The notes under the pieces: generated by a model
Database searches by the model: none
The model's input: the letters and a program-made list of their open reading frames with translations, nothing else
Told to the model about the DNA's origin: nothing
Shown: positions 21,687-37,138 of the stretch, piece by piece
How the letters are laid out: each line of letters starts with the position of its first letter
How positions within the stretch are numbered: the stretch's first letter is position 1
Made by a program: the position numbers and the translations under genes
IMG/VR virus record: IMGVR_UViG_3300042549_005625
Location: 1 to 40,103 of that record
Strand: one strand, 5' to 3'
From: a virus
DNA: 40,103 nucleotides

Positions 21687-21702
21687 GTTATAAGTTTTTT
21701 AG

Positions 21703-21709: not shown

Positions 21710-21721
21710 GTGTTTTTTTGA

Positions 21722-21729: not shown

Positions 21730-21751
21730 GTTAAGTAAATTACCAAATACT

Positions 21752-22003: not shown

Positions 22004-22010
22004 ATTAACT

Positions 22011-22036
22011 AACCCCTCCTAATCGAGGGGTTTTTT
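22011..22036 (+). terminator. Intrinsic terminator
   Basis: 8-bp stem AACCCCTC with GAGGGGTT, 6-nt loop, six T. Confidence 0.85.
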
Positions 22037-22047
22037 ATTTATTGAGG

Positions 22048-22058
22048 TATTTATAAAT
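22048..22058 (+). promoter_or_regulatory. TATTTAT box, 11 nt before ATG
   Basis: TATTTATAAAT abuts the ATG at 22059, after a terminator. Confidence 0.65.
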
Positions 22059-23039: not shown

Positions 23040-23044
23040 TTTTA

Positions 23045-23052
23045 TATCTTTG
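23045..23052 (+). promoter_or_regulatory. Host-type promoter box TATCTTTG, leaderless spacing
   Basis: TATCTTTG ends 5 nt before the ATG at 23058, so transcription would start about at the AUG. Confidence 0.6.
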
Positions 23053-23057
23053 CACCT

Positions 23058-23285
23058 ATGGCAATAGAAGTTACTAAAAACACAAAAAGACAAGTAGTTT
23101 ACGAGGATGAACAAACAACTACCATTTGGAAGTATGACTCATCTGTAACAACTTTTGGACCCGTAGAGGTCGAAATTCGGTATAAAAAGGGGTATGAATG
23201 GTCTGACCCATCGAAGAAAAAAACTTTAGGCGAATTAGCTAAAGAAGATAAAAAAAGAACTACAAGGAAATCAAAGGTTTCTTAA
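23058..23285 (+). CDS. Hypothetical protein, 75 aa
   Basis: Starts MAIEVTKNTKRQVVYEDE; beta-rich N-terminal half and a Lys/Arg-rich tail (TTRKSKVS). Overlaps by 15 nt the convergent gene 23271. No known family. Confidence 0.65.
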   Translation: MAIEVTKNTKRQVVYEDEQTTTIWKYDSSVTTFGPVEVEIRYKKGYEWSDPSKKKTLGELAKEDKKRTTRKSKVS

Positions 23286-23906
23286 TTGTTTGTCTATAAG
23301 GAATTTTAGACTAACAAGAGTGTCTTTGTCTAATTTAGGTATGAGTTTTTCAGTGTTTTCTAATAATTTTCTTGGATTACGAGATTCTCGTAGATTATTT
23401 GGTGCGTCTTTAACTATATCAATTTCCCAATCATTCATTTCAAAATTATCATATTCGGTATCTTTTAAAACACCGGAATAAATATCCCAATCATCGTTGT
23501 TTCTTTGTAAATATAAAGAATCTCTCACCCAATCTTTATCATAACATGAGAAAAGAGTTTCATAATATTCGATATATGTACAACTACCTTGAGAAGTGTA
23601 TTTAACCAAATAATCTTTGGGTTGTGGAATTATAAGTTGTTCTATAATTGACTTATCTCCATTAGATATTCGAGAAAGTAAACCACTATTAATTTCTAAA
23701 AATTTAATAAAAAACTGAACATCTTCTTCGACCACTGATTCGTTAAAATACGTGGATACTTGTTTAAGTATATCTTCATTAGAGTCGTATATGTCCTCAT
23801 AATTATGAGTAATATCATCCCATTCAAATCCGTCTTCGATAAGTTTATTCGCAATAAAAACTAATTGTTTTTTTGGGAATCTTGAAAAAGTACTTTGGTC
23901 TGCCAT
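23271..23906 (-). CDS. Hypothetical protein, 211 aa
   Basis: Starts MADQSTFSRFPKKQLVFI. Acidic, helical, Tyr/Asp-rich with two Cys. No catalytic motif or membrane segment seen. A minus-strand TATTTAT box at 11 nt provides its own start, although it lies downstream of the reverse block 24214-25916. Function unknown. Confidence 0.7.
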   Translation of the reverse strand: MADQSTFSRFPKKQLVFIANKLIEDGFEWDDITHNYEDIYDSNEDILKQVSTYFNESVVEEDVQFFIKFLEINSGLLSRISNGDKSIIEQLIIPQPKDYLVKYTSQGSCTYIEYYETLFSCYDKDWVRDSLYLQRNNDDWDIYSGVLKDTEYDNFEMNDWEIDIVKDAPNNLRESRNPRKLLENTEKLIPKLDKDTLVSLKFLIDKQLRNL

Positions 23907-23917
23907 ACTAATAAATA
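23907..23917 (-). promoter_or_regulatory. TATTTAT box, 11 nt before ATG
   Basis: Minus-strand TATTTATTAGT abuts the ATG of 23271-23906. Confidence 0.65.
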
Positions 23918-23930
23918 CAACAAAAGGTGG

Positions 23931-24230
23931 TTATTCACCACCTTTATGTTCTCTTTTTAAATAATCAACTAATTCTTGTAATTTGTCCGAATCTTCCGGG
24001 TTAAAGATAAATTCATCAAAAGCTCCGTATTTACATTGCCTCCCAAAGATATATCTCAAACCATAAGCAACTCGTTCCCAAAAAGGTCGTTTGTTTAAAT
24101 GAATGTGAAAATAACACATAGGGTGTGCTAACCCATTATCTAATTCATCTTCTTCATAAAGAATGACTAATTGATGTTCAGTTGAATGACAACTACAAAT
24201 TAATAAATCTTTTTTATTTTCCATCTTCAA
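23931..24230 (-). CDS. Hypothetical protein, 99 aa
   Basis: Starts MKMENKKDLLICSCHSTE (or at the second Met). CSCHSTEH and CYFHIHLN could form a Cys/His metal site; KRPFWERVAYGLRYIFGR, CKYGAFDEFIF looks like a conserved phage-protein block, but I cannot name it. Overlaps the metallophosphoesterase stop by 17 nt, so the two are translationally coupled. Confidence 0.7.
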   Translation of the reverse strand: MKMENKKDLLICSCHSTEHQLVILYEEDELDNGLAHPMCYFHIHLNKRPFWERVAYGLRYIFGRQCKYGAFDEFIFNPEDSDKLQELVDYLKREHKGGE

Positions 24231-24918
24231 TAAAATTTACTTCGTTTGTGTCCGGATTCCAATCAATAGTCATTGGTCTTTGTGCGTAATTATATCTTTC
24301 ATCTAATACTGCAGAATTAAAATGATGAGTATTATTTTTCATAACATAACCATATCCTGTGTGGATATGACCAACATTGTGAAGTTTAACATTCAATCTT
24401 TCTAATCTTTCTGCCAATAGTTCACAACCTAAATTATTGTGTCTTCTACCTTCAACAGTGTCTAATATACCAAACGCAGGTCCGTGAGTAAGTAAGATAT
24501 CAGTATCATCAGGAATTCCTTCCCATTTACCTGACAAAGCAATACCATTTTTTTGTAAATTGAAAGCCCAATCGTGAAACCAAGGTTGCCAAGGACTACC
24601 GTAGATTTTTACTTCTCTTTCATCACCAACTTTGATTACCAATTCACTATCTTGAAGGTATGTAATTCCGGTGTAGAAATCTAAAATCTCTTTTACCTTC
24701 TCAACATTGTCTTGGAAACCCCAATCGTGGTTCCCTGCGATGAATACCTTGTGAGTATAACCTTCAATGTTGTTAAACCATTTACAGAACTCTCTAATTT
24801 CGTGTTCGTAACCCATAGATGATATATCACCACTATGTACCAATAAATCACCACCCGGTAAATCACCGGTAATTTGTTTGTGTTTGTTGTGTGTGTCTGA
24901 AATAAGTGTTACTCTCAT
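24214..24918 (-). CDS. Calcineurin-like metallophosphoesterase, 234 aa
   Basis: All the motifs are present in order: DTHN (8-11), GDIS (about 30-33), GNHDW (61-65), LLTHGP (about 143-148) and GHIHTGYG (about 187-194), each supplying metal ligands. Related enzymes cleave phosphodiesters, 2',3'-cyclic nucleotides or 5' ends; the substrate here is unknown. Cytoplasmic. First gene after a host-type TATCTTTG box, coupled to 23931. Possible function in RNA or nucleotide metabolism together with the P-loop kinase at 13518. Confidence 0.9.
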   Translation of the reverse strand: MRVTLISDTHNKHKQITGDLPGGDLLVHSGDISSMGYEHEIREFCKWFNNIEGYTHKVFIAGNHDWGFQDNVEKVKEILDFYTGITYLQDSELVIKVGDEREVKIYGSPWQPWFHDWAFNLQKNGIALSGKWEGIPDDTDILLTHGPAFGILDTVEGRRHNNLGCELLAERLERLNVKLHNVGHIHTGYGYVMKNNTHHFNSAVLDERYNYAQRPMTIDWNPDTNEVNFIEDGK

Positions 24919-24934
24919 TAGTTCTAATTTTTTA

Positions 24935-24942
24935 CAAAGATA
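24935..24942 (-). promoter_or_regulatory. Host-type promoter box TATCTTTG
   Basis: Minus-strand TATCTTTG, 16 nt before the ATG of the metallophosphoesterase. Confidence 0.6.
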
Positions 24943-24954
24943 ATAAAAAGATTT

Positions 24955-25149
24955 TTAATCTTCATCATAATCTTTCCTATCTTCATCTTTATCCCAAAGA
25001 TTAATATCTAATTTGTCATCTTCATTCCAATCTAACCAATCTTCTCCTTTATAATCAGGGTGATTTTTTTGCATATTTGTAATTGCGTTAACCCATAAAA
25101 TGGATATAACAAGAACAACAATAAACATCAATAAATAAACTTTCCACAT
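24955..25149 (-). CDS. Single-TM protein with acidic tail, 64 aa
   Basis: Residues 3-22 (KVYLLMFIVVLVISILWVNA) form a membrane helix; the tail is rich in Asp, Glu and Trp (DWLDWNEDDKLD). Two nt after the stop of the 31-aa membrane protein. Unknown function. Confidence 0.65.
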   Translation of the reverse strand: MWKVYLLMFIVVLVISILWVNAITNMQKNHPDYKGEDWLDWNEDDKLDINLWDKDEDRKDYDED

Positions 25150-25151
25150 AA

Positions 25152-25247
25152 CTATTTCTTTTTAATTTCGTCTACAATTAAGGCTATAACCATGGTTGCA
25201 ATTAATGACCCCATAATAACTAAACCAATGTAAGATTCTGATTCCAT
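25152..25247 (-). CDS. Tiny single-TM protein, 31 aa
   Basis: MESESYIGLVIMGSLIAT, then MVIALIVDEIKKK: one membrane helix with charged ends. Supported by an upstream TATTTAT box and tight linkage to 24955. Unknown function. Confidence 0.5.
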   Translation of the reverse strand: MESESYIGLVIMGSLIATMVIALIVDEIKKK

Positions 25248-25262
25248 ATTTACAATTTACTG

Positions 25263-25269
25263 ATAAATA
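25263..25269 (-). promoter_or_regulatory. TATTTAT box (longer spacing)
   Basis: Minus-strand TATTTAT, 15 nt before the ATG at 25247. Confidence 0.4.
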
Positions 25270-25280
25270 TGGTGGTCAGA

Positions 25281-25916
25281 TTAATCCCACCATCCTTCGA
25301 TGTTTTCTTCCATTATTTTAAACAACAATTTTCTAACTCTATCGTGATTGATGTATCCGATATTCATAGCAATTAATTGTTTATCATCCTCACGTCCTTC
25401 TCTATCAATAGGACCTTCACCATTTAACACTCTTTTGTAAATTAATGGGTATTTTTTGAAATAATCATCAAAATTCTCTTCCAATGTTCTTGATTCCCAA
25501 GATGATAATCTTTCGTCACCCGGAATTGGCTCAAACCAATGTTTTGTTTTATGATAATCTGAGTATTCTGACGAATAAAACTCATCTTGAACCAATTTCA
25601 TTAGTTTAACACACAATTTCATTCTTTTTGCGTCTAACTGAGCTCGAGTATGTAAATCTCTACGACCAATATAGTCGGATTGAGACGATAATTTGTGTTT
25701 CATTATCTCAAAAATGTAATGACTATCCCAATTTCGGTCTTTCCATATGATTGGGAACCAATAAATTAGGTTTTTTACACCTCTTTTGAATTCAAGATGT
25801 AAATATTTCCCTTCGTGGTCCCACCATAATGGAATAAACCGTAATTTTCTTACAATCCATGGTTGTTTTTCACGTTTTTCCGCCCATTGTTCAAATATGT
25901 CTTTTTCTGGTTCCAT
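25281..25916 (-). CDS. Conserved-looking phage protein, 211 aa
   Basis: Starts MEPEKDIFEQWAEKREKQ. Blocks FKRGVKNLIYWFPIIWKD, WDSHYIFEIMKHKL and RMKLCVKLMKLV resemble, from memory, a conserved hypothetical family of large phages and bacteria, without known function. Trp-rich and basic; no membrane helix despite WFPIIW. Host-type promoter box upstream. Confidence 0.75.
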   Translation of the reverse strand: MEPEKDIFEQWAEKREKQPWIVRKLRFIPLWWDHEGKYLHLEFKRGVKNLIYWFPIIWKDRNWDSHYIFEIMKHKLSSQSDYIGRRDLHTRAQLDAKRMKLCVKLMKLVQDEFYSSEYSDYHKTKHWFEPIPGDERLSSWESRTLEENFDDYFKKYPLIYKRVLNGEGPIDREGREDDKQLIAMNIGYINHDRVRKLLFKIMEENIEGWWD

Positions 25917-25932
25917 TTTTTAATATTTTTTA

Positions 25933-25940
25933 CAAAGATA
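25933..25940 (-). promoter_or_regulatory. Host-type promoter box TATCTTTG
   Basis: Minus-strand TATCTTTG, 16 nt before the ATG at 25916. Confidence 0.6.
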
Positions 25941-25950
25941 GTAAAAAAAT

Positions 25951-25980
25951 AAGACCCGTCAAAATAAATTTACGGGTCTT
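25951..25980 (-). terminator. Terminator upstream of the 25281 unit
   Basis: 9-bp stem AAGACCCGT with ACGGGTCTT, 12-nt loop, followed on the minus strand by a T-rich run. Separates the 26055 unit from the 25281 unit. Confidence 0.7.
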
Positions 25981-26046
25981 TTGGAAAAAGATATATGAGA
26001 ACACTCTCAAAGGAGTGGTGTGTATGAATAAATACACTAATATTCT

Positions 26047-26088
26047 AAAAAAGTTCAGTTAGTCGTATTGTGAACGAACTTTTTTTTG
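26047..26088 (-). terminator. Long-loop hairpin with T-runs on both strands
   Basis: 10-bp stem AAAAAAGTTC (26047-26056) with GAACTTTTTT (26076-26085), 19-nt loop. Overlaps the end of the 26055 gene. Confidence 0.5.
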
Positions 26089-26318
26089 AATGTTATAGAA
26101 ATTCTTTTTTGATGAAAACTACTCCAAAAATTATTTCTCAATCTTCTTAAGAATTTTGATTCAATACTATTAACTCCGGTATCCAAATGATTAATAACCC
26201 AAAGATTAAAACATTTTTCTGCACAGTCTAAATGTTCTCTTGTTTGAGAAGATTCTAAAACTTTTACCGTCCATTTATAGTTGGTAAGTGCCACTTTTAA
26301 GTTAGTAGATATTGCCAT
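26055..26318 (-). CDS. Hypothetical protein, 87 aa
   Basis: Starts MAISTNLKVALTNYKWTV. Basic and helical; the middle EHLDCAEKCFNLWVINHL has two Cys. No known motif. Host-type TACCTTTG box upstream, long hairpin at its end. Confidence 0.65.
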   Translation of the reverse strand: MAISTNLKVALTNYKWTVKVLESSQTREHLDCAEKCFNLWVINHLDTGVNSIESKFLRRLRNNFWSSFHQKRISITFKKKFVHNTTN

Positions 26319-26336
26319 AGTTTTATTTTTTTTTTA

Positions 26337-26344
26337 CAAAGGTA
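26337..26344 (-). promoter_or_regulatory. Host-type promoter box TACCTTTG
   Basis: Minus-strand TACCTTTG, 18 nt before the ATG at 26318. Confidence 0.55.
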
Positions 26345-26369
26345 ATGAAAAAAATAAAATATCAAAAAA

Positions 26370-27191
26370 TTATTTTAATAAATTATAATATTCTTTAAAA
26401 TGTTTAATTCTATCAGGTAAACCAATAGTTCCACCATTCACTCTTTTAGTTACTGCCGTTACTGTTGCGTCGTCAGCTCCTTTATCACAAATAGACCAAA
26501 GTTTGTTTGAGTCAAAGAAGAATGCCGCAGATGCTAATGGATATTTTGTTGCAACCAAATCAGGATTTGATACAGTATCTTCACCGATAAATTTCGCGAA
26601 GTTTGTATAGTTTTGTTTTCCTGTTAATTGAATATAACCTCTACCTCTGAATTTAAACCCATCTTTTGTTGATTCATCACCATTACCCATTCTTCCACCA
26701 TATACTTTTGATGCAATTTTTTCAGGGTTTCTTGCGTAAGATTCTGCTAAGTTGCCCGGAAAGTATTTTGGGAAGATTTTTTTAAGACCATCCGCAGAAT
26801 AATTTACATTTTCAGAAACTGCTTTAAATCCACCTGATTCATGACCACATTGTGCCAAGAAATGAGCTAATCTTAATGGATTAGTGATGTTGAATTTTTT
26901 TGCAGTGTCAGGTATTTGAGCAATTACTGATTCCGGAATGTGTCCTTTTAATTTTTCTAATTTGAATGGTCCTCCCGATGGAATAACTACATCTTCTTTA
27001 ATGATTTCCCCCGGAAACATCTTTTTCCAAGTTCCATCACCAACAATCCCGTCAGATGTTAATCCATTTTTAGTTTGCCATTCTTTAACCAATTTCTCAG
27101 TTCCAGGTCCAAAAACACCATCGGGTGTTGTTCCTAATTTTGATTGAAGTTTTTTAACTTCTTCGCCTTTTGAGCCATTTTTTAGTATCAT
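26370..27191 (-). CDS. Endolysin: peptidoglycan-binding domain plus GH19 domain, 273 aa
   Basis: Residues 4-60 form a PGBD1 repeat (GSKGEEVKKLQSKLG ... TPDGVFGPGTEKLVKEWQ). Residues about 85-270 are a GH19 chitinase/lysozyme domain: AHFLAQCGHESGGF with catalytic Glu118 and FRGRGYIQLTGKQNY (181-195). It cleaves beta-1,4 bonds in peptidoglycan at lysis. No signal peptide, so it needs a holin. Ordering N-terminal binding then C-terminal catalysis is standard. Minus-strand TATTTATA box 22 nt upstream suggests late expression with the neighbours. Confidence 0.95.
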   Translation of the reverse strand: MILKNGSKGEEVKKLQSKLGTTPDGVFGPGTEKLVKEWQTKNGLTSDGIVGDGTWKKMFPGEIIKEDVVIPSGGPFKLEKLKGHIPESVIAQIPDTAKKFNITNPLRLAHFLAQCGHESGGFKAVSENVNYSADGLKKIFPKYFPGNLAESYARNPEKIASKVYGGRMGNGDESTKDGFKFRGRGYIQLTGKQNYTNFAKFIGEDTVSNPDLVATKYPLASAAFFFDSNKLWSICDKGADDATVTAVTKRVNGGTIGLPDRIKHFKEYYNLLK

Positions 27192-27212
27192 AGTAATTTA
27201 CGTTTTTATTAC

Positions 27213-27220
27213 TATAAATA
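27213..27220 (-). promoter_or_regulatory. TATTTAT box (longer spacing)
   Basis: Minus-strand TATTTATA, 21 nt before the ATG of the endolysin. Confidence 0.5.
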
Positions 27221-27228
27221 CTTTAACT

Positions 27229-28203
27229 TTAGTCCTTTTTACCCGTTCTTATTAAATAAAAATTTGAGGACCCACCATTTATTGGGGAATTAATGGTAAA
27301 ACTTTGAACACCGGGATAAGAATTTCTCAAATCATTAGTTGAAGAATTTAGTATTGAATATTGAGATGGTATTAAAATTCTTGAGTCAGGAATTGAATTT
27401 GTCCAAGAAGAAAATCTACCTGATTTTTTCATAAAAATGTAATATGAATCTGATATATTAATTCTACCATCATTATTAACATCATATCTATAATAATCTA
27501 ATGATGTTAATGTTCTTGATATTGATTTGGTGTTTGATTGTTGTGCGTCAATATTTTCTAATGAAGGTGGAGTGGATGGGGTACTAATTTGTAAATACCA
27601 TTCAACTGAAGGGTTTGAAGCTTCATTAATTGAGTATCTCCCATTGGAATCTGTGTAAACACTTTTTACGTATGCCCATTCCGTAAATGTTACAATATAC
27701 TCAAACTCCAAAACATATGGTAATGAAATATTAGGTAAATCATTCCATTTACCACCACCAACAAATTGAATATAATCTTCATTACCTGCGTTATTTGGTT
27801 CCCCACCATTCCAATTAGACCAAGAAAAGGGTTCATTTGTAACCCATCTCCAAGTACCTTCTGACACTTCATCTGTTAATCCAATCCAACCATTTGGCCA
27901 TAGATTAAATATAAAGTTATTCTCAGCGGGTGAAGTTACAGTAACTAAATGACCTCCCATGTTTAAACACGCCTGTCTTGCATCCGTCCAAGTCATAGAA
28001 CCGGTTGAACGATAATATGAATGTCCGTTATAATTATTTTGAGAGGTAAACCCATTTAAAGTTGGTGTTGTTCTTTTATACAACTTTACTTCCATATTTT
28101 GAATACCACCACCTACCGAGTTATAGATATAACCCGAGTAAGTAAAATTTTGACTCCAAGAGATTGTTGAAAATAAAAGTAATATGTAGAATAACTTTGT
28201 CAT
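27229..28203 (-). CDS. Secreted C-type lectin with dockerin-like EF-hand, 324 aa
   Basis: Signal peptide 1-18 (ends SWSQ). Residues 60-168 are a C-type lectin domain with WIGL (106-109), EPN (135-137, a mannose-type sugar-ligand motif) and WND (153-155). Residues 240-267 hold DVNNDGRINISD, a perfect Ca-binding dockerin/EF-hand loop, followed by the block SGRFSSW shared with the 627-aa protein at 32026. The C-terminus (RTGKKD) lacks a T9SS domain. Last gene of the exported cluster. A sugar-binding, possibly cell-surface-anchored adhesin is inferred. Phage C-type lectin folds are otherwise known in tail fibres and diversity-generating cassettes; no repeats of that sort are seen here. Confidence 0.85.
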   Translation of the reverse strand: MTKLFYILLLFSTISWSQNFTYSGYIYNSVGGGIQNMEVKLYKRTTPTLNGFTSQNNYNGHSYYRSTGSMTWTDARQACLNMGGHLVTVTSPAENNFIFNLWPNGWIGLTDEVSEGTWRWVTNEPFSWSNWNGGEPNNAGNEDYIQFVGGGKWNDLPNISLPYVLEFEYIVTFTEWAYVKSVYTDSNGRYSINEASNPSVEWYLQISTPSTPPSLENIDAQQSNTKSISRTLTSLDYYRYDVNNDGRINISDSYYIFMKKSGRFSSWTNSIPDSRILIPSQYSILNSSTNDLRNSYPGVQSFTINSPINGGSSNFYLIRTGKKD

Positions 28204-28650
28204 TTATAGTTCTAATGCGTTTTGTATTGCTTTTTTTAATGCCGAAGAAAATGCCGATTTTTCAAAAGGGAGATTTTCATCCTGTAATTCTATAAATGTT
28301 GATTTTACATCAGTATTTGAATCACCAACACCTTTATATTCTTTACCATCTTTAGTGATAATTAAAGTAACTATTGTTTTTTTTCTTTTTCTTTCAAATG
28401 GCCCTAATGATATACCGGTTGACGGAGCTTCAATACTTTCTATTAATACTGAAACAGGTTTACCGTCTTCGCATATTGTATTGTTAACTGATAATATTTC
28501 TTCAGTAATTTGTTTAACTCCTAAAGTGAATCTTTTTGGGTTAACACCTTCGATATCTCCATTGTTTTTAACTTCTTTAACTGTATAACAATTTTGAGAG
28601 AAAGATGTTAGTGAACCTAACATCAATAATGTAATTAATAATTTTTTCAT
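28204..28650 (-). CDS. Small exported protein, 148 aa
   Basis: Signal peptide 1-19 (ends TSFSQ), one Cys soon after (NCYTV). Mature part is beta-rich with the segment TIVTLIITKDGKEYKG and a C-terminal amphipathic helix (FSSALKKAIQNAL), a layout reminiscent of periplasmic accessory proteins of secretion systems such as CsgE/CsgF partners, but no sequence proof. It ends directly at the start of 27229 and lies 2 nt below the next gene in the cluster. Confidence 0.7.
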   Translation of the reverse strand: MKKLLITLLMLGSLTSFSQNCYTVKEVKNNGDIEGVNPKRFTLGVKQITEEILSVNNTICEDGKPVSVLIESIEAPSTGISLGPFERKRKKTIVTLIITKDGKEYKGVGDSNTDVKSTFIELQDENLPFEKSAFSSALKKAIQNALEL

Positions 28651-28652
28651 AT

Positions 28653-29438
28653 TTAAAAATCTAAATTTCCACCTATTAAGATATTATTCATAATACCAAA
28701 TTTCGGTGTTGTGTTTATGTTCATTCTCCAATTAGTATTCATTTTAAACGATTTTGATATGTTTACCGATAAAGAATTTCCGACCACTGAATTGAATGTT
28801 GTTGAAGTTCCTAATGTTCCCAAACCTAAATCGTAATATGGTGAACATATTGTTATAAATGTTTCTGGAGTCCATTTAATTTTGTTGGATATTTTAATTT
28901 CTTTATTTGCCATTAATACCGTATAAGGGACTAATATAAAATAAACGTATTTATGGTCTTCAAGCACTGTAGAACCTATTTGAACTCCAAAATTTATTTT
29001 ATCAGTTAAAAACATTTTAGTAACACTACCCCCTAAATTAATCGTAGTACCCATCTTACCAAAATTAAAATGGTAATACAAGTTTTTATTTTTATAGTAA
29101 GAAGAATAGGATTGTTGTGTTAAATCAAATGTTAAAACCGCATTAACCCCAAACCCTTTACCTTCATTTATTTTACTCCATCCTAAACTTGTACCATGTC
29201 TCCATCCATCTTCATATGTTGGATTTTGAATTAATGCGAAATCGGCAGATGTTAACATAGGGTTAGGTTTAATTATAGAACCACCCCCAAATGATTTAGA
29301 TTGAGTTCCAATTATATTATTTTGGGAATTTCCAAATAGTTCAGTAGAACTTGGTGTTGAACTAGATGGAGGAGGTGCGGGTTGACCGAATAAATTCCCA
29401 CAAATTAATAAAGGTATTAGTATTAATAATTTTTTCAT
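28653..29438 (-). CDS. Outer-membrane beta-barrel-like protein, 261 aa
   Basis: Signal peptide 1-18 (ends LFGQ), a Pro/Ser-rich linker (20-40), then about ten alternating hydrophobic/polar strands (for example FGVNAVLTFDLTQQ, YYHFNFGKMGTTINLGG), with a terminal Phe (IGGNLDF), the usual outer-membrane barrel C-terminal signal. Possibly a BAM-inserted barrel. Part of the cluster (2-nt gaps). Function unknown; could be a surface anchor or pore partner. Confidence 0.7.
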   Translation of the reverse strand: MKKLLILIPLLICGNLFGQPAPPPSSSTPSSTELFGNSQNNIIGTQSKSFGGGSIIKPNPMLTSADFALIQNPTYEDGWRHGTSLGWSKINEGKGFGVNAVLTFDLTQQSYSSYYKNKNLYYHFNFGKMGTTINLGGSVTKMFLTDKINFGVQIGSTVLEDHKYVYFILVPYTVLMANKEIKISNKIKWTPETFITICSPYYDLGLGTLGTSTTFNSVVGNSLSVNISKSFKMNTNWRMNINTTPKFGIMNNILIGGNLDF

Positions 29439-29440
29439 AG

Positions 29441-30898
29441 TTATAAAAATGCTTTAGCTCCAAGTAATACTTGGTAGTTTAGTGGTTGGTCGTTTATTTG
29501 TTGTACCCCACTAAAACTTAGGTTTAGTTTAAATTTTTTAGTTAATTTATAATCGACAGCAACAAATGGAACTGCTAATAGACCTGATTGATACCATATT
29601 CCCTCGTAATAATATACAAAAGGGGAATATACAATAACAAACATTGTTGTCATACCCATTTTTTTATTAACATTAAAACTACCAAATGCTCCACCTAATG
29701 TAGAGATACTTTGAAATTTAGATTCCCCTAAATTCCCTGTTGTGTAGTTAACCCCCACGGTTGTGGTGATTTTTTTTATTTGGTACGACTCCATTACAGA
29801 GGTTGTGTTAAAAAAATCTTTATCAAAATTCATCATAGATGAATTTGCAATAATAGTTGTTAATTTTTTATAACGATATGATGCAAATAATGTGATATTC
29901 GTGTTGTTAACTTGACTTGTATAATTAACCAACGCTCCTTTTGCAAATGTGTTTTTTGTGTTTGATGAAATGATACTCGTATTTACTCTTATTTGAGAAG
30001 GGTCAGTTCCTGCGGCGCTTCCTATTACTACAATATCTCCTGTCATCATTAAACTACCTTTTTTAACTGCAGCGACTTTACTTTTAGTTGATGAAGAGGT
30101 TGTTGATGATGAGGATTGTGCGTCATCAAGTTTTTCTTTATCTGATTTTTCAGTATTGTCTAATTTGACAGAATTAATCCCTCCTGTGATATTACTTACA
30201 CCCGAGGAGTTATTAGTATTTTGTGTTGTGGAGTTATTAGTATTTGGTGATGTGTTATTACCGGAAGTTACAGGTGACTGAGACGACTGACCTCCTGTTG
30301 TAGTTGGGTTATTTGGATTTGAAGTCGTTCCTCCTTGCGGATTAGTTCCATTTCCAACTCCTGAACCATTGTTTTGATTTCCCCCGCTTTGCGAAGTTCC
30401 TGAATTTGTGTTAGTAGTTGTTGTACTTCCTCCGTTAATATTAATTGTTGCATTATTTTCTATTTTGGTTTTATCCTTCTGTCTTTCATTATTAGATGAT
30501 ACTTTTTCATCTGCTTGAATAATACCTTCCACATTTGACATACCTGCGGATGATATTGAAGACATTGAGGTTAATACAGTAGTTAATACTTGTATGTTAT
30601 TGGCAGCAATTGTTGCGTTAACCGATGTGTTCAGTTGAAGACCTACACCACTACAAGGACCTGAAGGATTTTGAGAATTTACCTCATTTATCCATTGTTC
30701 CATTGCACCTGATTGAAGTTGAGCATATGTAAAACTTTGTACTGACCCATTATATGATAACACCACACTTTGTGATGGATTTGGAATAAAAATTTCCTTG
30801 GTTTTGGAAGTGCAAGGGTCTGCATACGAATATGTAAACCCTTGACCTAATACCATGGTTGTAAATATAAGAAATAAAAATGAGAATATCGTCTTCAT
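29441..30898 (-). CDS. Large exported protein: low-complexity linker plus barrel-like C-terminus, 485 aa
   Basis: Signal peptide 1-18 (ends VLGQ). Residues about 20-140 hold a mixed domain with two Cys; residues 150-250 are extremely rich in Asn, Thr, Ser and Gly (NTNSGTSQSGGNQNNGSGVG-like). Residues about 275-485 form amphipathic strands ending in LLGAKAFL, an outer-membrane barrel-type C-terminus. The long flexible stretch may span periplasm or project outward. Its start overlaps the CsgG-like stop by 1 nt (TAATG), so they are coupled. Function unknown. Confidence 0.75.
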   Translation of the reverse strand: MKTIFSFLFLIFTTMVLGQGFTYSYADPCTSKTKEIFIPNPSQSVVLSYNGSVQSFTYAQLQSGAMEQWINEVNSQNPSGPCSGVGLQLNTSVNATIAANNIQVLTTVLTSMSSISSAGMSNVEGIIQADEKVSSNNERQKDKTKIENNATININGGSTTTTNTNSGTSQSGGNQNNGSGVGNGTNPQGGTTSNPNNPTTTGGQSSQSPVTSGNNTSPNTNNSTTQNTNNSSGVSNITGGINSVKLDNTEKSDKEKLDDAQSSSSTTSSSTKSKVAAVKKGSLMMTGDIVVIGSAAGTDPSQIRVNTSIISSNTKNTFAKGALVNYTSQVNNTNITLFASYRYKKLTTIIANSSMMNFDKDFFNTTSVMESYQIKKITTTVGVNYTTGNLGESKFQSISTLGGAFGSFNVNKKMGMTTMFVIVYSPFVYYYEGIWYQSGLLAVPFVAVDYKLTKKFKLNLSFSGVQQINDQPLNYQVLLGAKAFL

Positions 30899-31614
30899 TA
30901 TTCTTTAAAAACCCCTTTTTTAATTAATTTAGAAACAACTCTTGAAGATGCGGTTTCTAACGATTTTTTTGTTGATATACCAATTGTTGATTGGTTAAAT
31001 TTAATTTCATCAACATCATCTAATAACGATGATGTTTTCACTGTGTTAGACTCACCTAACCCACTACCAGTTATAACTTCACCGGTTTGGGCATCGACAA
31101 ATCTAATCTGTAAACCTAAACGAGTTGTTTGAGTTATTTTAGCACCTTCACTTCCTTTAATCACTTCGTCTTCTGAGACACTGAAATCGTAAACTTCTAT
31201 GTAAACAAAATAGTTAGCTAAAATTACATTACCTTTAACTTCTATTTTATTACTTGAAATTCCTTTATCAGACGCCTTATCTTGGGCAATCATTTTGTTT
31301 TTGATTTCCGCTTTATCCTCAGTGAATTTAAATCTATCTGTTGATTCTAAATACTCTAATACAATATTCGCAACCCCAAGACCTACTCGTTTATCTTTTA
31401 GTTCAGGATACATCTCATATACCTCATCGTTGATACCAATTTTTAATATTTGGATTGGTATTACAATGTCACCATTATAATCACTGACAACATCTAAAGA
31501 TTGTTTTTTTTCAAAATCTGCTTTATAGTCCTCAGTTTTTATGGTTCCAATAGTTTGGGATAATCCAATACACGAAAAAAGTAAAAAAGGTAATAGTAAT
31601 ACTATTTTTTTCAT
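30898..31614 (-). CDS. CsgG-like outer-membrane secretion lipoprotein, 238 aa
   Basis: A lipobox LLFSC gives Cys15, so the mature protein is lipidated like CsgG. The order GLGVANIVLEYLESTDRF (helix and strand), then ITQTTRLGLQIRFVDAQTG and VITGSG, then STIGISTKKSLETASSRVV, follows the CsgG/curli-channel family (LxLRVVDxxTGxV, TxxGxAxxxA). CsgG forms a nonameric outer-membrane pore that exports unfolded protein. The start is set at 31614, giving a true signal peptide; a longer frame runs upstream through the neighbour. One nt separates it from 31616. In this phage it could secrete the cluster's proteins or permeabilise the outer membrane; both inferred. Confidence 0.75.
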   Translation of the reverse strand: MKKIVLLLPFLLFSCIGLSQTIGTIKTEDYKADFEKKQSLDVVSDYNGDIVIPIQILKIGINDEVYEMYPELKDKRVGLGVANIVLEYLESTDRFKFTEDKAEIKNKMIAQDKASDKGISSNKIEVKGNVILANYFVYIEVYDFSVSEDEVIKGSEGAKITQTTRLGLQIRFVDAQTGEVITGSGLGESNTVKTSSLLDDVDEIKFNQSTIGISTKKSLETASSRVVSKLIKKGVFKE

Positions 31615-31615
31615 A

Positions 31616-31957
31616 TTACCAAGGGTCTTCTTCCGTTTTTGGTTTAGCAGGTGCTGGTTGTGCTGCTGGTTTTTCCACAACTTTTTCTCTGATAATTGTG
31701 TTAGTACCACCACCATTGTTTTGTTGTTTTTGTTGGTTTGTGTTGTTGTTTTGTAGATTGATAACTACAGGTGCGGCTGCAGGTTGTGCAACTTGTTCTG
31801 TTTTTGTTTCTTCTTTATCGTCACCATGACCTCCAAACAATTGTGTTGATAACCATATACCACCACCACCAATAACAGTAGTTAAAGTACCTATTATTGT
31901 TTTCTTTAATCCTGACCAAGTACCATCATTTTGTGTTTCTTGTGTTTCTTCTGACAT
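31616..31957 (-). CDS. Single-TM protein with Pro/Ala/Asn-rich tail, 113 aa
   Basis: A short charged N-terminus (MSEETQETQND), a Gly-rich hydrophobic segment (about 19-43: IIGTLTTVIGGGGIWLSTQL), then a low-complexity tail with QNNNTNQQKQQNN and PAAQPAPAKPK. Topology suggests a membrane anchor with a long periplasmic arm reaching toward the cell wall or outer membrane, like TonB- or spanin-type spacers. Directly precedes the CsgG-like gene. No family. Confidence 0.65.
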   Translation of the reverse strand: MSEETQETQNDGTWSGLKKTIIGTLTTVIGGGGIWLSTQLFGGHGDDKEETKTEQVAQPAAAPVVINLQNNNTNQQKQQNNGGGTNTIIREKVVEKPAAQPAPAKPKTEEDPW

Positions 31958-31999
31958 TTTAATTTAATTTTAATTGTTTATTTCCTTCTTATAGGCTTT

Positions 32000-32020
32000 G
32001 GTGTCACAAATTGTGACACC
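32000..32020 (-). other. Perfect hairpin between 32026 and 31957 genes
   Basis: 8-bp stem GGTGTCAC with GTGACACC, 5-nt loop, 6 nt after the stop of the T9SS-cargo gene; no T-run follows, so it may protect or process the mRNA rather than terminate. Confidence 0.6.
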
Positions 32021-32025
32021 ATAAA

Positions 32026-33909
32026 TTATTTACGGATTATCTTATTAGATTCTATTTCCGTACCTTTTTTAAGAGTAACTATGTAAGTTCCTGAAGGAAG
32101 GTAACCAACATTTGTACTATATCTGTGTTCACCTGAATGTAAATCAGTGTTAACGATTGTTTGAATTTCTCTACCACCCAAATCATATAAAGATAACCAA
32201 ACATTACCTTCTTTTTCTACAGTAAATTTGACAGTGATGTCATTATCAGTTGGATTAGGGTATGTCACCATATATTCTAAATCGGTTGGTTTCATAACTC
32301 TCATGATTTGAATAATCCCATTTGTAGGTATTATTTTCAAATCTCGAGCGATTGAATTTCCTGAGAATTTTTTTGTAACATATAAAGGACTTACACCCCA
32401 TTGACTTTGAATTTCTTTCGATGTGAATTGTAGTGTGAAAGCTAATTCGTTGTCATTTAATAATTTTGTATTTTTTGTTGGGTCATAGCCACCCCACTCA
32501 ACAATATTATCATTTGTATTAACATAAGTTATCCATCCACTAACTTTATTCTCAGCTCTAACACCTGTAAAATCTAATAGATTACTATTGTAATTTAATG
32601 CCAGTTGTAAAGAACCTAATTGAATTCCATTTGTTTTTACAAGAACAGGAACCTCAACTCTACTATTTTCATTTACCGTTAAACTTGGATAGTTTAATTC
32701 GATGGTTTGTAATGTTGGGTTGTCATAAGTTGTTGTAACATCAATAATATTTGATGGTGCGTTTAACGGGTTTACAATTTCAATTGGTGTCATACGAGCC
32801 ATATTAAAACCTGTACCATTAGCATCTCCTTTAACTAACACATAGAAAGTAACTGTTGTTGTACCCGGTAAAATGTTGTAAACAAGATTCGTTACACCCG
32901 GAATTGTAGATTGTAAAGATGATGTTGAACCATTAATAGAAGTGTATTCTGAATCTGAGAAGAATTTAACATCTTTAACCGAGTTAGGCCAAGAACTAAA
33001 TCTTCCTGATACTCTACCAAACACACCATACACATCAGAAATTGATATGTTGTTGTCACCATTAACATCAGATGAATAAAAATCAAATCCTGTCGGAGTA
33101 TCTTGACCTAAAACAAATCTGTTGATTTTTTGTGAGTCAGATGTTGAAATGATATTTGCTATTGATAGTGATTCACCATCTACTCTAATACGAACGTCAT
33201 AACTTGTAACGTCTAGTGGTACATCTGTAAATGTGAAAACACCAGCGTTATTTGTTTGTGTTGTTGACGCTTGAATCCAAGTTGAAGATGTCATTAATTT
33301 TTTCTCTAAAATAACCGGAATTAGTTTTGACCCCGTTCCTGTTACGTTAGTGAATGTACCACTAAACGAAAATAGTTGAGGTAAAAATGCTCCACCAAAG
33401 TTTTGTAAATTTAAAGTATAGTCAGAACCATTTTGTTTTGTTGCGGTTTGTGGGAATGTTTGAACACCACTAAATGTCATGGGTTGAACAGACGACAAAC
33501 TCGCAAAATTCGCTGAGTGTACTAAATTTAATTTTACAAATGACCCATTTGATAATTCAAAATTCGAGTCATTACCTGTATAAGTTAGAGTAATCGTAAC
33601 ATATCCATTTGCAGGACTATCCTGAAATTGAATATATTGGGGGAACGATGTATTTGACGATACGACAGAAGACACTGATGTGAATGCTGAGGTATCATAA
33701 AACACTCGAAACTGAACAGCCGTAATCAATTCGGTAGTATTGTTAAAAAAACATAAACCTACTTCAGTATTACCAGCAGATGCCGGTGCTAATTGATAAG
33801 TTGCGTCTAATGTAACAAAAACTCCGGTAGTTGTCGGTGTCGGACAAATTTGGGAATAACCCAGTGAAGTCATCACAAGGAATGACAGCACCATAAAAAG
33901 TTTTTTCAT
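32026..33909 (-). CDS. T9SS-secreted cohesin/dockerin-like surface protein, 627 aa
   Basis: Signal peptide 1-20 (ends LGYSQ). Domain order: a cohesin-like beta-sandwich at about 40-150; a carboxypeptidase-regulatory-like strand block (180-245); a dockerin-type EF-hand DVNGDNNISISD (281-292) with the SGRFSSW block; a second cohesin-like sandwich at about 405-535; and at 548-627 a type A T9SS sorting domain (YPNPTDNDITVKF, LYDLGGREI, LPSGTYIV, end SNKIIRK). The T9SS domain directs export across the outer membrane and usually surface attachment. It opens the exported cluster, with a TATTTATA box and a hairpin leader. Adhesin or scaffold is inferred. Confidence 0.85.
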   Translation of the reverse strand: MKKLFMVLSFLVMTSLGYSQICPTPTTTGVFVTLDATYQLAPASAGNTEVGLCFFNNTTELITAVQFRVFYDTSAFTSVSSVVSSNTSFPQYIQFQDSPANGYVTITLTYTGNDSNFELSNGSFVKLNLVHSANFASLSSVQPMTFSGVQTFPQTATKQNGSDYTLNLQNFGGAFLPQLFSFSGTFTNVTGTGSKLIPVILEKKLMTSSTWIQASTTQTNNAGVFTFTDVPLDVTSYDVRIRVDGESLSIANIISTSDSQKINRFVLGQDTPTGFDFYSSDVNGDNNISISDVYGVFGRVSGRFSSWPNSVKDVKFFSDSEYTSINGSTSSLQSTIPGVTNLVYNILPGTTTVTFYVLVKGDANGTGFNMARMTPIEIVNPLNAPSNIIDVTTTYDNPTLQTIELNYPSLTVNENSRVEVPVLVKTNGIQLGSLQLALNYNSNLLDFTGVRAENKVSGWITYVNTNDNIVEWGGYDPTKNTKLLNDNELAFTLQFTSKEIQSQWGVSPLYVTKKFSGNSIARDLKIIPTNGIIQIMRVMKPTDLEYMVTYPNPTDNDITVKFTVEKEGNVWLSLYDLGGREIQTIVNTDLHSGEHRYSTNVGYLPSGTYIVTLKKGTEIESNKIIRK

Positions 33910-33925
33910 AGTTTAATAATATCTT

Positions 33926-33939
33926 GGTAATTTATTACC
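33926..33939 (-). other. 14-nt palindrome in leader of the exported cluster
   Basis: GGTAAT-TT-ATTACC lies between the box (33940-33947) and the ATG at 33909; it would form a 6-bp hairpin at the 5' end of the mRNA. Confidence 0.5.
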
Positions 33940-33947
33940 TATAAATA
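33940..33947 (-). promoter_or_regulatory. TATTTAT box of the exported cluster
   Basis: Minus-strand TATTTATA, 30 nt before the ATG at 33909; the only box of this type in front of the seven-gene run. Confidence 0.5.
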
Positions 33948-33978
33948 TTCGTATAAAAGTTTGACACCCTAAACCCAC

Positions 33979-33986
33979 TATTTATT
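33979..33986 (+). promoter_or_regulatory. TATTTAT box (longer spacing)
   Basis: TATTTATT beginning 20 nt before the ATG at 33999, divergent from the box at 33940. Confidence 0.5.
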
Positions 33987-33998
33987 TAGAAAAAAAAC

Positions 33999-34457
33999 AT
34001 GAGAATTATCATATTATTAATGTTGTTTTTTACCACTCAATCGTTTTCACAAATAGTCATTGATGATGTTGGAGAAGGGTGGAAAAAAAATGTGGAGAAA
34101 AGTTTGGAAGTGATTAAAAAAGTGGATTCACCCAAGTACGACATAGTGATTAAACAATGTAAACGAATAGGGTTTTGGAATAATAAGTTCTCAACCACTG
34201 AAGGTAATGATGTTATATTGATATCTAAACAAGACATTCAATCAGGTAATATCAATAATTTATCTGCCATAATAATTCATGAATCAAAACATTTATATTA
34301 TAGGAATAATAACATATTTTTAGATGAGAGGGATGAAGAAATTTTATGTTATCAATATGAATTGGATTTCCTTAAAAAAATACCTTTAGTTGAAAATTGG
34401 TTGATTAAACATTGTGAAAATATGATTAACTATTATCGTGGTTTAAAACAACAATAA
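33999..34457 (+). CDS. Secreted HExxH metallopeptidase-like protein, 152 aa
   Basis: Signal peptide 1-18 (ends QSFSQ). AIIIHESKHLYY (90-101) has the zinc site His94, Glu95, His98, followed by DERDEEILCYQYELDF (109-124), where Glu121 could be the third ligand. Small size suggests a minimal zincin. Divergent from the exported cluster, so it may act with it (processing or cell-wall access). Activity is inferred from the motif alone. Confidence 0.75.
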   Translation: MRIIILLMLFFTTQSFSQIVIDDVGEGWKKNVEKSLEVIKKVDSPKYDIVIKQCKRIGFWNNKFSTTEGNDVILISKQDIQSGNINNLSAIIIHESKHLYYRNNNIFLDERDEEILCYQYELDFLKKIPLVENWLIKHCENMINYYRGLKQQ

Positions 34458-34463
34458 TTGAAG

Positions 34464-34471
34464 TATTTATT
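34464..34471 (+). promoter_or_regulatory. TATTTAT box (longer spacing)
   Basis: TATTTATT beginning 22 nt before the ATG at 34486. Confidence 0.45.
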
Positions 34472-34485
34472 ATAAAATAGAATAT

Positions 34486-35112
34486 ATGAATAATTTAAGA
34501 CAAATAATTAAAGAGACATTAGAGTCCCACTTAGATAAGACTTTAATATTAAAAGAAGACGTTGAAGTATCAGAATCACTATCTTACCATATTAATGAAG
34601 GTATGTCGTTAACTGATAATGTTTTTAGAGCGTACTCTCAAAAATATTTTGATTTGGTTAACGAAGTTAGAAAACTATGGAATGAAGGTAAAATAGACCT
34701 AAATGAAGAAGATAAAATGATGGTTGAGTCTGATTTGGGTATTAAAGTTAAAATAGGTAATGAGTATGTTTATTTGGACGCTCCTTACATCTATGAAACT
34801 GAAACTGAAGAAGATATTTTACAAGAGGCAATGCACAGAGGAAAAAAGGTTCAATTAAATAAACCTAAAAGAACTCCCGGAGGTCCTAAGAAATTCGCCG
34901 TTTATGTTAAAACACCAGGAGGTGGGGTTAAAAAGGTGACTTTCGGAGACCCTAACTTAAAAATCAAAAATAAAAATAAAGGGGCTGCCAAATCATTCAG
35001 AGCACGTCATAAATGTGACCAAAAGAAAGATAGAACAACTGCAGGATATTGGTCTTGTAATGTTGGACGATACGCAAAACAATTAGGGCTTTCTTCTTCA
35101 AACTCTTGGTAA
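34486..35112 (+). CDS. Virion-type protein with processed propeptide, 208 aa
   Basis: An N-terminal part MNNLRQIIKETLESHL resembles the shared leaders; at about 112-117 the sequence DILQEAMHRG contains LQE|A, a good prohead-protease site. The following basic module (KKVQLNKPKRTPGGPKKF, VYVKTPGG, KKVTFGDP, FRARHKCDQ, YWSCN) is, from memory, common in proteins of marine T4-like phages, often right after an (I/L)-x-E|A site. So the propeptide is likely removed during head maturation and the basic domain kept inside. Precise role unknown. Confidence 0.8.
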   Translation: MNNLRQIIKETLESHLDKTLILKEDVEVSESLSYHINEGMSLTDNVFRAYSQKYFDLVNEVRKLWNEGKIDLNEEDKMMVESDLGIKVKIGNEYVYLDAPYIYETETEEDILQEAMHRGKKVQLNKPKRTPGGPKKFAVYVKTPGGGVKKVTFGDPNLKIKNKNKGAAKSFRARHKCDQKKDRTTAGYWSCNVGRYAKQLGLSSSNSW

Positions 35113-35378
35113 TGGATTTCCCATTTGAACAAATAATTGAAAATGGTAAACTAGTAAGAACTTTTTATCCGGATGTTGAAGATGAAGAATTAAAGTGGCA
35201 TCAGGACTTGAAAGATAGACGAGTAACCATAATTGAAGATGGTGGGTGGCAATTTCAAATGGAAGATGAATTGCCGAATAAGTTGTCAATTGCCGATAAA
35301 CTTATTATTCCAAAACTTTCTTGGCACCGAGTAATTAAAGGTGATGGTAAATTAGTTGTTGAAATAGAAGAATTTTAA
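35112..35378 (+). CDS. Small phage-conserved-looking protein, 88 aa
   Basis: MDFPFEQIIENGKLVRTF start overlaps the previous TAA by one base (TAATG). The pattern DVEDEELKWHQDLKDR, WQFQMEDELP, and KLIIPKLSWHRVIKG resembles a small cupin-like phage protein family (recalled, not checked). Ends 5 nt before a strong terminator. Confidence 0.75.
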   Translation: MDFPFEQIIENGKLVRTFYPDVEDEELKWHQDLKDRRVTIIEDGGWQFQMEDELPNKLSIADKLIIPKLSWHRVIKGDGKLVVEIEEF

Positions 35379-35383
35379 ATAAA

Positions 35384-35414
35384 AAAATACCCCGTAATTG
35401 GGGTATTTTTTTTT
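35384..35414 (+). terminator. Bidirectional terminator between convergent genes
   Basis: 10-bp stem AAAATACCCC with GGGGTATTTT, 6-nt loop, T-runs on both strands. Confidence 0.85.
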
Positions 35415-36600
35415 ATTCTGGACTTTGTGTACAATCTTCTTCATAACCGATTTCTTCACCAACTTGATGAGCTCCTCCGATTTCAATGTTTTGTAATCTA
35501 ATTCCCATTGATTCTCTAAGATTCGAAATTCTTCTTCTAAGAGGTGATATAGTTTCTTCAGTAATATCTTCACCAATTTCTTCCATGATATTGTTCATTT
35601 CTTCTCTAATTTCTCTACCTAAAGGTCTTAATTGAACAACTCGAGGTTCAACACGTCTTTCTTCCATGTTAAAATTAATTTGTGGAATTGCCTCTTCCAT
35701 CATTGGTGTTTCCACCTCATACATTGGTCTTTCTACCTCTTCTTCGTAGTACGTGTCTTGCCTAACTAATTGTTTCTCAACTGGACGACCACATTCTTTA
35801 CGAACTTGTGCTCTAATTTTAGTTGAAGACAAATCTCTATTGGTTTCTTCCGATTTCAAAATTTGTTTAATAATTGGGAACATATAATCATCTATATCTA
35901 ATTCCAAGAAATCGACTCTTTGGTCCGCAGCATTCCAAAAACTTAATTCTTTATCTCCATCAAGAGCTTTGAATACGGCAAATTTTAATCCGGTGATTTT
36001 ATTAATAAAATAAACTAAAATACCTCTTTTCCAATATCTTTCAAAATACTGTTTATCATTTTGGTAAGTTGTACACCATTTAGTTGCCGCTCCGTATTTG
36101 GATGATGCTCCAAATGTTAATGGTCTTAACGCTAACCAAGTTTCGTCATCGTGTTCTCTAATGATTTGAGACCTTAATTCTTTCTCATCTTCTTTTAGAG
36201 AGGCTAATCCAACAGACGACATGATTTGTTCAAAATTTTGGTAAGAAGTGACATCATTATTTGGTATTAAACCTCTTTCATTATATTTTCGAAATGAGGC
36301 TAAAAGCTGCATATCTTCATTACTAAAATGGTCTGATAAACAATAATGAGCGTAAATTTCATTATTTGACATACCATTATAATTTAAACCCATAAGGTCC
36401 AATCTTTCTTTAATATGATTCATTTCACTTTCTTCGTCACGTTTGTGCCATAATTTATTCACTTGGAATCTTGATGAAAGTAATTTACACATTAAAGGTA
36501 AGTATTTGTTTGTTTTGGTACTATCCATTTTTGAAAACAAATCGATTATCGATATGTTTAACTCAGGATACTGGTTTTTAATTTCTGAGATTTTTGACAT
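35413..36600 (-). CDS. KWCT-domain phage protein, 395 aa
   Basis: The central block LTFGASSKYGAATKWCTTY and YFERYWKRGILVYFINKI (about 160-200) matches a domain frequent in large phages (KWC-T followed by Y-x-x-Y...L-Y-x-h), function unknown to me. The C-terminal 130 residues are strongly charged, Glu/Arg-rich and probably coiled-coil (EEEVERPMYEVETPMMEE). Host-type TACATTTG box 52 nt upstream. Structural or scaffold-related role cannot be excluded. Confidence 0.7.
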   Translation of the reverse strand: MSKISEIKNQYPELNISIIDLFSKMDSTKTNKYLPLMCKLLSSRFQVNKLWHKRDEESEMNHIKERLDLMGLNYNGMSNNEIYAHYCLSDHFSNEDMQLLASFRKYNERGLIPNNDVTSYQNFEQIMSSVGLASLKEDEKELRSQIIREHDDETWLALRPLTFGASSKYGAATKWCTTYQNDKQYFERYWKRGILVYFINKITGLKFAVFKALDGDKELSFWNAADQRVDFLELDIDDYMFPIIKQILKSEETNRDLSSTKIRAQVRKECGRPVEKQLVRQDTYYEEEVERPMYEVETPMMEEAIPQINFNMEERRVEPRVVQLRPLGREIREEMNNIMEEIGEDITEETISPLRRRISNLRESMGIRLQNIEIGGAHQVGEEIGYEEDCTQSPE

Positions 36601-36652
36601 AAGTTATTTAGTTTGATTAAATTATAATTTTTTTAATTAAATGGGTCAAATA

Positions 36653-36660
36653 CAAATGTA
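36653..36660 (-). promoter_or_regulatory. Possible host-type promoter box TACATTTG
   Basis: Minus-strand TACATTTG, 52 nt before the ATG at 36600. Confidence 0.4.
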
Positions 36661-36700
36661 AATTTTAACATTTTAATTTTTATAGTATGATTAAATGTAG

Positions 36701-36708
36701 TATATTTG
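36701..36708 (+). promoter_or_regulatory. Host-type promoter box TATATTTG, leaderless spacing
   Basis: TATATTTG ends 4 nt before the ATG at 36713; transcription would begin at the AUG or just inside. Confidence 0.55.
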
Positions 36709-36712
36709 CATT

Positions 36713-37138
36713 ATGAAAACAATAACCTCACTTTTATTTTTATTGATTCCATTTATGGGATTCTCTCAGGATGCGGACTTAATGTATGTACCGGACCAAA
36801 ACACGATTGTAGCAACTTATAACAGCAATTACTCTCCAATTGGGTATTATGTTGGTGGGTATGTCACAACGACCCGTCCACAACCTTACATCTACACAAC
36901 ACCGATGTCGATTTTGAATCGTGTTGGGATTAGTTTAACCAATCACAAAGTTAGTGTTATGGGGGGTGTATTTATTGAAACTTATATTGATGAAATTAAA
37001 ACTAAACCGGATGTATGGGTTAAAATTTACCCATTGAGAATTATTACAAATACTGAAAAAGGGTTTGATTTCACTGTTGGTGTAAATTACATGGAAGGTT
37101 TTAGATACGGAGTCGGTGTTGTAATTCCATTTCGATAG
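36713..37138 (+). CDS. Exported beta-barrel-like protein, 141 aa
   Basis: Signal peptide 1-19 (ends GFSQ). A Tyr-rich, beta-strand pattern (PIGYYVGGYVTTT, VSVMGGVFIETYI, GFDFTVGVNYMEGFRYG) ends VVIPFR, with a penultimate Phe as in outer-membrane barrels. Small size would allow an 8-strand barrel. Function unknown. Followed by a box that starts right at its stop. Confidence 0.65.
   Translation: MKTITSLLFLLIPFMGFSQDADLMYVPDQNTIVATYNSNYSPIGYYVGGYVTTTRPQPYIYTTPMSILNRVGISLTNHKVSVMGGVFIETYIDEIKTKPDVWVKIYPLRIITNTEKGFDFTVGVNYMEGFRYGVGVVIPFR

Follow-up and report, generated by a model that had tools for sequence, protein, structure and literature searches.

HfaB, a component of the Caulobacter holdfast anchor complex, is a CsgG-like protein. 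Among phages, the pelagimyophages carry a curli-like csgG/csgF cluster for which a 'sibling capture' role has been proposed (PMC7029224), and the methylophage Melnitz carries a CsgG/CsgF cassette with a proposed role in lysis (PMC9004378). Phage-encoded cargo of the type IX secretion system (T9SS) has been published earlier for Cryophage (PMC7468147) and for the gut crAss-like cluster 2 (PMC6949934). The idea of phage T9SS cargo is not new, having been published in 2019-2020; the combined cassette context that we describe here appears to be undescribed, and we found no description of it in the open-access literature. Our study concerns a T9SS-tagged gene in the 40,103-base IMG/VR virus record IMGVR_UViG_3300042549_005625, analyzed over its whole length and referred to below as the window. 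We consider the cassette around this gene a more interesting finding than the tag itself.

The tagged gene and its sorting tail

The plus strand across 32026-33909 is riddled with stop codons, and the open reading frame of the tagged gene lies on the minus strand, a point on which the first-pass annotation was silent. The gene has the following features:

32026..33909, minus strand: T9SS-tagged protein of 627 amino acids, a probable cohesin/dockerin-type scaffold (open reading frame and profile searches)
33850..33909, minus strand: signal peptide, residues 1-20, MKKLFMVLSFLVMTSLGYSQ (inspection)
33370..33849, minus strand: N-terminal beta domain, residues 21-180, with weak cohesin likeness (two cohesin stretches, E<=0.1)
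32980..33369, minus strand: transthyretin/CarboxypepD-like module with a dockerin-like calcium loop, DVNGDNNISISD, residues 181-310 (profile searches)
32275..32697, minus strand: cohesin domain, residues 405-545, with the Pfam match at 408-498 (PF00963, 29.7 bits, cut-off 24.1)
32029..32262, minus strand: type A T9SS C-terminal sorting domain, residues 550-627 of 627 (TIGR04183 and PF18962)

When a profile of 46 scaffold sequences was compared with solved structures, it recovered cohesins (6kg8/6kgc), the ScaB dockerin 4uyp_B (E 0.0045) and T9SS sorting domains; the single protein gave no match against the PDB by phmmer. At E<=0.01, 38 of the 46 scaffold relatives match a cohesin and 16 of the 46 match Dockerin_1, and the dockerin-like segment of the window's own scaffold has no Pfam match above cut-off. 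From these profiles we classify the protein as a probable cohesin/dockerin-type scaffold, whose membership is supported for the cohesin family and in part for the dockerin family. A signal-peptide-like start was found by a crude script in 45 of the 46 representatives. The N-terminal domain could not be established as a further cohesin, and hhalign gives no link between it and the cohesin near the C-terminal end of the protein. An AlphaFold model of the scaffold, obtained from a 9-sequence alignment, reached a pLDDT of 35 and was set aside. Beside the scaffold gene, at 33999-34457 on the plus strand, lies a divergent gene for a secreted protein with an HESKH motif, which is kept in this position in close relatives.

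The type A hallmarks that had been read at the C-terminus are all present: YPNP at residues 550-553, LYDLGGREI, LPSGTYIV and the terminus ...ESNKIIRK, with the domain spanning 550-627. The search against the sorting-domain model that had been proposed as a check returned a clear match, with 38.4 bits for TIGR04183 (E 8.8e-10, cut-off 23), and PF18962 gave 39.9 bits (E 5.3e-10, cut-off 27). The domain was found in 46/46 representative scaffold homologues, and PF18962 was above cut-off in none of the 14 control genomes. A single PF18962 domain is above cut-off in every one of 32 viral records, the longest of which has 308 kb, and it always lies in the scaffold gene; there is one tail per locus in all 83 cassette loci examined, the window included. 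To avoid circularity, further contigs were reached by starting from the CsgG-like gene of the cassette, and in all 37 of those with enough upstream sequence the tail and the cohesin lie on the same open reading frame. Purifying selection acts on the tail (omega 0.16-0.51) less strongly than on the cohesin and dockerin parts, and the remainder of the protein evolves more slowly. A tblastn search of the phage collection with the tail alone recovered only the phage immuto (E 0.03), in a mode that is too insensitive to give the frequency of phage T9SS tails.

Cassette neighbours, lectin and expression timing

The scaffold gene opens a cassette whose order is nearly fixed: scaffold, small protein with one transmembrane segment, CsgG-like protein, barrel-like protein, and then a short CsgG-like protein and a lectin in either order. 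The arrangement is kept in the isolated phage immuto as well. In the window, its members and neighbours are:

33940..33947, minus strand: late-promoter-like TATTTATA (TATTTAT motif), 31 nt upstream of the scaffold start codon (motif search)
31616..31957, minus strand: small Ala/Pro/Asn-rich protein with one transmembrane segment, kept adjoining the scaffold gene
30898..31614, minus strand: CsgG/PelC-fold secreted protein, the most conserved cassette gene (VIA-align, Foldseek, PF03783 in relatives)
29441..30898, minus strand: secreted protein with a conserved N-domain, an Asn/Ser/Thr/Gly-rich linker and a C-terminal beta-rich part (cassette conservation)
28653..29438, minus strand: extra secreted protein, barrel-like and not a constant cassette member (homologues in three other loci)
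28204..28650, minus strand: short CsgG-related secreted protein (hhalign 95.9% to the CsgG-like family)
27229..28203, minus strand: secreted C-type lectin with a C-terminal dockerin-like module (PF00059, 60.4 bits)
26370..27191, minus strand: endolysin adjoining the cassette (phrog_181, E 5e-67)

The predicted model of the CsgG-like protein (pLDDT 60) aligns with CsgG 6lqh_A over 146 residues (VIA-align Z 10.1, 3.2 A), with PelC and LptE-type folds nearly as close, and the second barrel hairpin is not clear in it. A search of a viral fold library placed first a phage protein that bears the name CsgG (E 1.1e-3). PF03783 (CsgG) is matched by 3 of 31 relatives (best E 8.5e-5), and the window copy has no match. 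The lipoprotein cysteine of CsgG is not conserved in the family: a cysteine lies near the end of the signal peptide in the window and in some relatives, is missing there in L011 and in immuto, and is unaligned in others. On this modelled fold, the protein should be called CsgG/PelC-fold, a name that does not include pore formation. No Pfam match to CsgA/CsgB or to CsgF/CsgE was obtained among the cassette proteins. The protein at 29441..30898 has no Pfam match either, and its C-terminal part appears from its sequence to be outer-membrane-barrel-like. Among the first 83 loci, the extra barrel-like gene occurs only in the window, L081 and L082; it is also present in L088 and is missing from close relatives.

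The timing of expression was approached through immuto (160 kb; host Flavobacterium sp. LMO8, Baltic Sea), a cultured phage that is the scaffold's closest annotated relative and that carries T4-like gp20, gp23, prohead protease and tail sheath. With its genes classed as late/structural or early from annotation, 18 of the 49 structural or late genes have TATTTAT in the 60 nt preceding them, versus 1 of the 58 early genes (Fisher p 1.3e-6). The same motif precedes the scaffold gene in 28 of 44 non-redundant relatives, with a mean of 2.9 and a maximum of 9 in shuffles, which suggests that the scaffold gene is expressed late. No clear enrichment next to TATTTAT was seen for TATAAATA, the usual orientation of the late motif of T4. 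A late-type motif is also what structural genes carry, and the cassette proteins could be imagined to decorate the particle, with the sorting-domain fold serving merely as a structural beta-sandwich; we regard this as very unlikely, given that nearly all cassette proteins have signal peptides, that the immuto cassette comes after DNA-metabolism genes and is distant from the structural modules, and that the tail closely resembles the tails of host cargo.

Several other open reading frames of the window were recorded. Nine on the plus strand (at 1566, 4477, 4820, 5127, 7697, 14254, 16999, 19572 and 22059) start with a peptide like M-K-Y-I-I-T-E-S-Q/K-L, which resembles a T4-type capsid-targeting leader; the motif lies in the first 30 amino acids of 9 of 65 open reading frames versus 4 of 288 in background windows, and several of these genes have TATTTATA about 12 nt upstream of their start. 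Two similar neighbours at 2161-2802 and 3203-3889 (plus strand) are hydrolase-like, with a GNCGG/GNCVG motif, and appear to be paralogues. The product of 5932-6741 (plus strand) looks aminoacyl-tRNA-synthetase- or AsnA-like by eye and has a strong phrog_29758 match.

The endolysin lies directly downstream of the cassette in the window and near it in about half of the relatives, and this position, together with the late-type motif and the lysis role proposed for the CsgG of Melnitz (PMC9004378), invites the explanation that the CsgG-fold and barrel-like proteins perforate the outer membrane in concert with the endolysin, with the scaffold and the lectin stripping or destabilizing surface glycans. 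We consider such a lysis device unlikely: the immuto endolysin is located elsewhere, beside an annotated holin; lysis would require neither a dedicated anchor at the surface nor lectin heads that vary; and the model of the CsgG-like protein lacks a clear second barrel hairpin.

The lectin of the window contains an EPN...WND motif, which we take to be the classical calcium-dependent sugar site, and a DVNNDGRINISD loop. A transthyretin-dockerin-like module is common to this protein and the scaffold (hhalign 99.9%), and by eye the C-type lectin domain appears to be inserted in one of the loops of the transthyretin-like domain, a loop that runs without interruption in the scaffold. Against Dockerin_1 the window lectin scores 14.3 bits, below the cut-off of 22.9, and 6 of 31 lectin relatives match at E<=0.01. 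The dockerin-like end is retained across these relatives while the heads vary, with Lectin_C in 23/31, LamG in 9/31 and GEVED in 2/31, some proteins having more than one. Because the mean identity of head and tail is similar (0.44 vs 0.42), the variability of the heads rests on domain exchange and spread and not on mean identity. The lectin protein has no T9SS sorting tag.

Variable sugar-binding heads and T9SS surface anchoring would also suit superinfection exclusion, which has been suggested for the T9SS cargo of Cryophage (PMC7468147); the displayed lectin would then mask or cross-link surface sugars that are the receptors of competing phages. The promoter motif is nevertheless of the late type and not of the early type, and PADLOC returned no defence match. 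Exclusion factors are usually early genes. We judge this explanation improbable.

Distribution among phages and the host side

Relatives of the CsgG-like cassette gene are present in at least 569 IMG/VR contigs. Two peptide patterns led to 227 viral contigs, the best 80 of which were kept, with relatives at 43-97% identity. Among 32 cassette-bearing viral records, the immuto capsid protein is matched in 15 and the immuto terminase in 14; the window itself has a 17-bit match to the immuto capsid, which covers 43 residues and probably does not mark a capsid gene. A scaffold-based scan of 84,980 GTDB genomes recovered no relative, and a CsgG-based scan of GTDB recovered three MAG contigs with the cassette or parts of it, two of which hold recognizable scaffold genes with a tail and one of these also a T4-type portal. 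A chromosomal or contamination origin was considered and rejected from the distribution of the cassette, and the scaffold family is, as far as seen, phage-borne. The reading of the protein as phage-encoded is borne out: immuto, which is a cultured phage, has the same cassette, and so do contigs on which T4-like genes for capsid, terminase and portal are found.

Two variants bear on how the parts are held together. In immuto the scaffold is split into genes 14 and 15 (L012 10527-13422), whose products are secreted separately: one comprises the N-terminal and dockerin parts and lacks a tail, and the other comprises the cohesin part and the tail; a tail on the cohesin half only is as expected if the parts join non-covalently. 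Contig L089 of a Flavobacterium MAG encodes, at positions 4412-6578, a diverged cohesin protein without a tail, followed by a small lipoprotein-like gene whose product reads IIAGC-SDLE... and has a tail-like end. The SDLE stretch presumably resembles the surface-export signal of Flavobacterium lipoproteins, and we treat it as a lead. A missing tag together with a separate lipoprotein-like gene agrees with selection acting on surface anchoring, and both variants fit a non-covalent assembly in which surface anchoring matters. Elsewhere in immuto, 18607-37015 (L012, L013) is annotated with queuosine-type 7-deazaguanine synthesis and DpdA, which points to DNA base modification, and 49172-59988 is a glycosyltransferase cluster.

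G038 is a Flavobacterium MAG that contains a relative of the cassette, and on the host side the family profile was run against 199 genomes of its genus. Host proteins were matched almost only at the tail (query ~528-630, E down to 5e-16), and none of the matches listed was a full-length scaffold relative. Sampling of 61 genomes of this genus gave SprA above cut-off in 60, and SprA is absent from the viral records tested, so that the phage supplies the cargo and not the machine. Taken at the level of sequence, these observations strongly imply that the scaffold would be exported by the host T9SS. The first-pass annotation had proposed that the phage routes its own adhesin through this system; this proposal is partly supported, in that the tail is genuine and conserved and belongs to one family with the tails of host cargo. 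The word adhesin is right only indirectly: the protein is probably a scaffold, and sugar binding would fall mainly to another cassette protein, the dockerin-like lectin.

The same sorting tag is abundant in host genomes, and a host-derived passenger gene that kept it by accident and is useless to the phage should be weighed. The spread of the CsgG-like cassette gene over at least 569 viral contigs, the nearly fixed gene order, the purifying selection, the lack of a full-length relative among the matches listed in the 199 genomes and the recovery from GTDB of MAG contigs only, one with a T4-type portal, make this explanation scarcely credible.

Proposed function and comparison with known systems

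The explanation that we favour, and consider rather probable, is that of a phage adhesin scaffold that is exported and anchored by the T9SS late in infection and onto which the lectin docks. Sec would take the scaffold across the inner membrane. The type A sorting domain would then lead the host T9SS to export the scaffold and anchor it on the exterior of the infected Bacteroidota cell. Its cohesin would be the dock for the dockerin-like tail of the lectin from the same cassette, and the CsgG-fold and barrel-like proteins may help in the export or the outer-membrane anchoring of the parts. The outcome would be a phage-made sugar-binding coat on the late-infected cell, which most likely would keep neighbouring host cells or envelope glycans near during the release of progeny. 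We place moderate confidence in the cohesin-dockerin docking of scaffold and lectin, and weak to moderate confidence in adhesion or capture as the purpose of the displayed lectin. More tentatively, large Bacteroidota phages may build a cellulosome-like platform, in which a dockerin-tagged and exchangeable glycan-binding head is plugged into a T9SS-anchored cohesin scaffold, altering the stickiness of the host late in infection. If this is true, a widespread group of aquatic phages uses a host-specific secretion machine for a multi-part sugar-binding display just before release. Immuto and its Flavobacterium host offer a cultured system for testing phage CsgG-type cassettes, which are as yet unexplained.

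Compared with curli type VIII secretion, the CsgG fold was found here and a conserved lipoprotein cysteine, CsgA/CsgB and CsgF/CsgE were not. The pelagimyophage and Melnitz clusters share with this cassette a CsgG-type protein, secreted partners without assigned function and a possible role in aggregation or lysis; in contrast to them, no CsgF or CsgA/B was detected here, a T9SS scaffold, a lectin and a barrel-like protein are added, and the phages are those of Bacteroidota. The Caulobacter holdfast anchor complex lies at the outer membrane (PMC6707917). It likewise combines a CsgG-type outer-membrane protein with adhesin partners, and differs in being chromosomal, in serving a polysaccharide holdfast and in having no T9SS. 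As in the cellulosome, a cohesin lies on an anchored scaffold and a dockerin-like module on a carbohydrate-binding partner, a pairing that is predicted here; unlike the cellulosome, there are one well-supported cohesin, a degenerate dockerin and no enzymes, and the system is phage-encoded and, by prediction, T9SS-anchored. Host T9SS type A cargo has the same signal peptide, the same extreme C-terminal type A tail above curated cut-offs and the same modular beta-rich body, whereas the protein described here is phage-encoded in a conserved cassette and its body is not found at full length in the host genomes searched. Cryophage and the crAss-like cluster 2 also encode proteins with T9SS sorting domains that are thought to use the host machine; their cargoes consist of enzymes, a PA14 protein or BACON proteins, and have been described as highly variable in Cryophage, whereas the cargo found here is one cohesin/dockerin-type protein, a constant member of a multi-gene cassette that many phages share.
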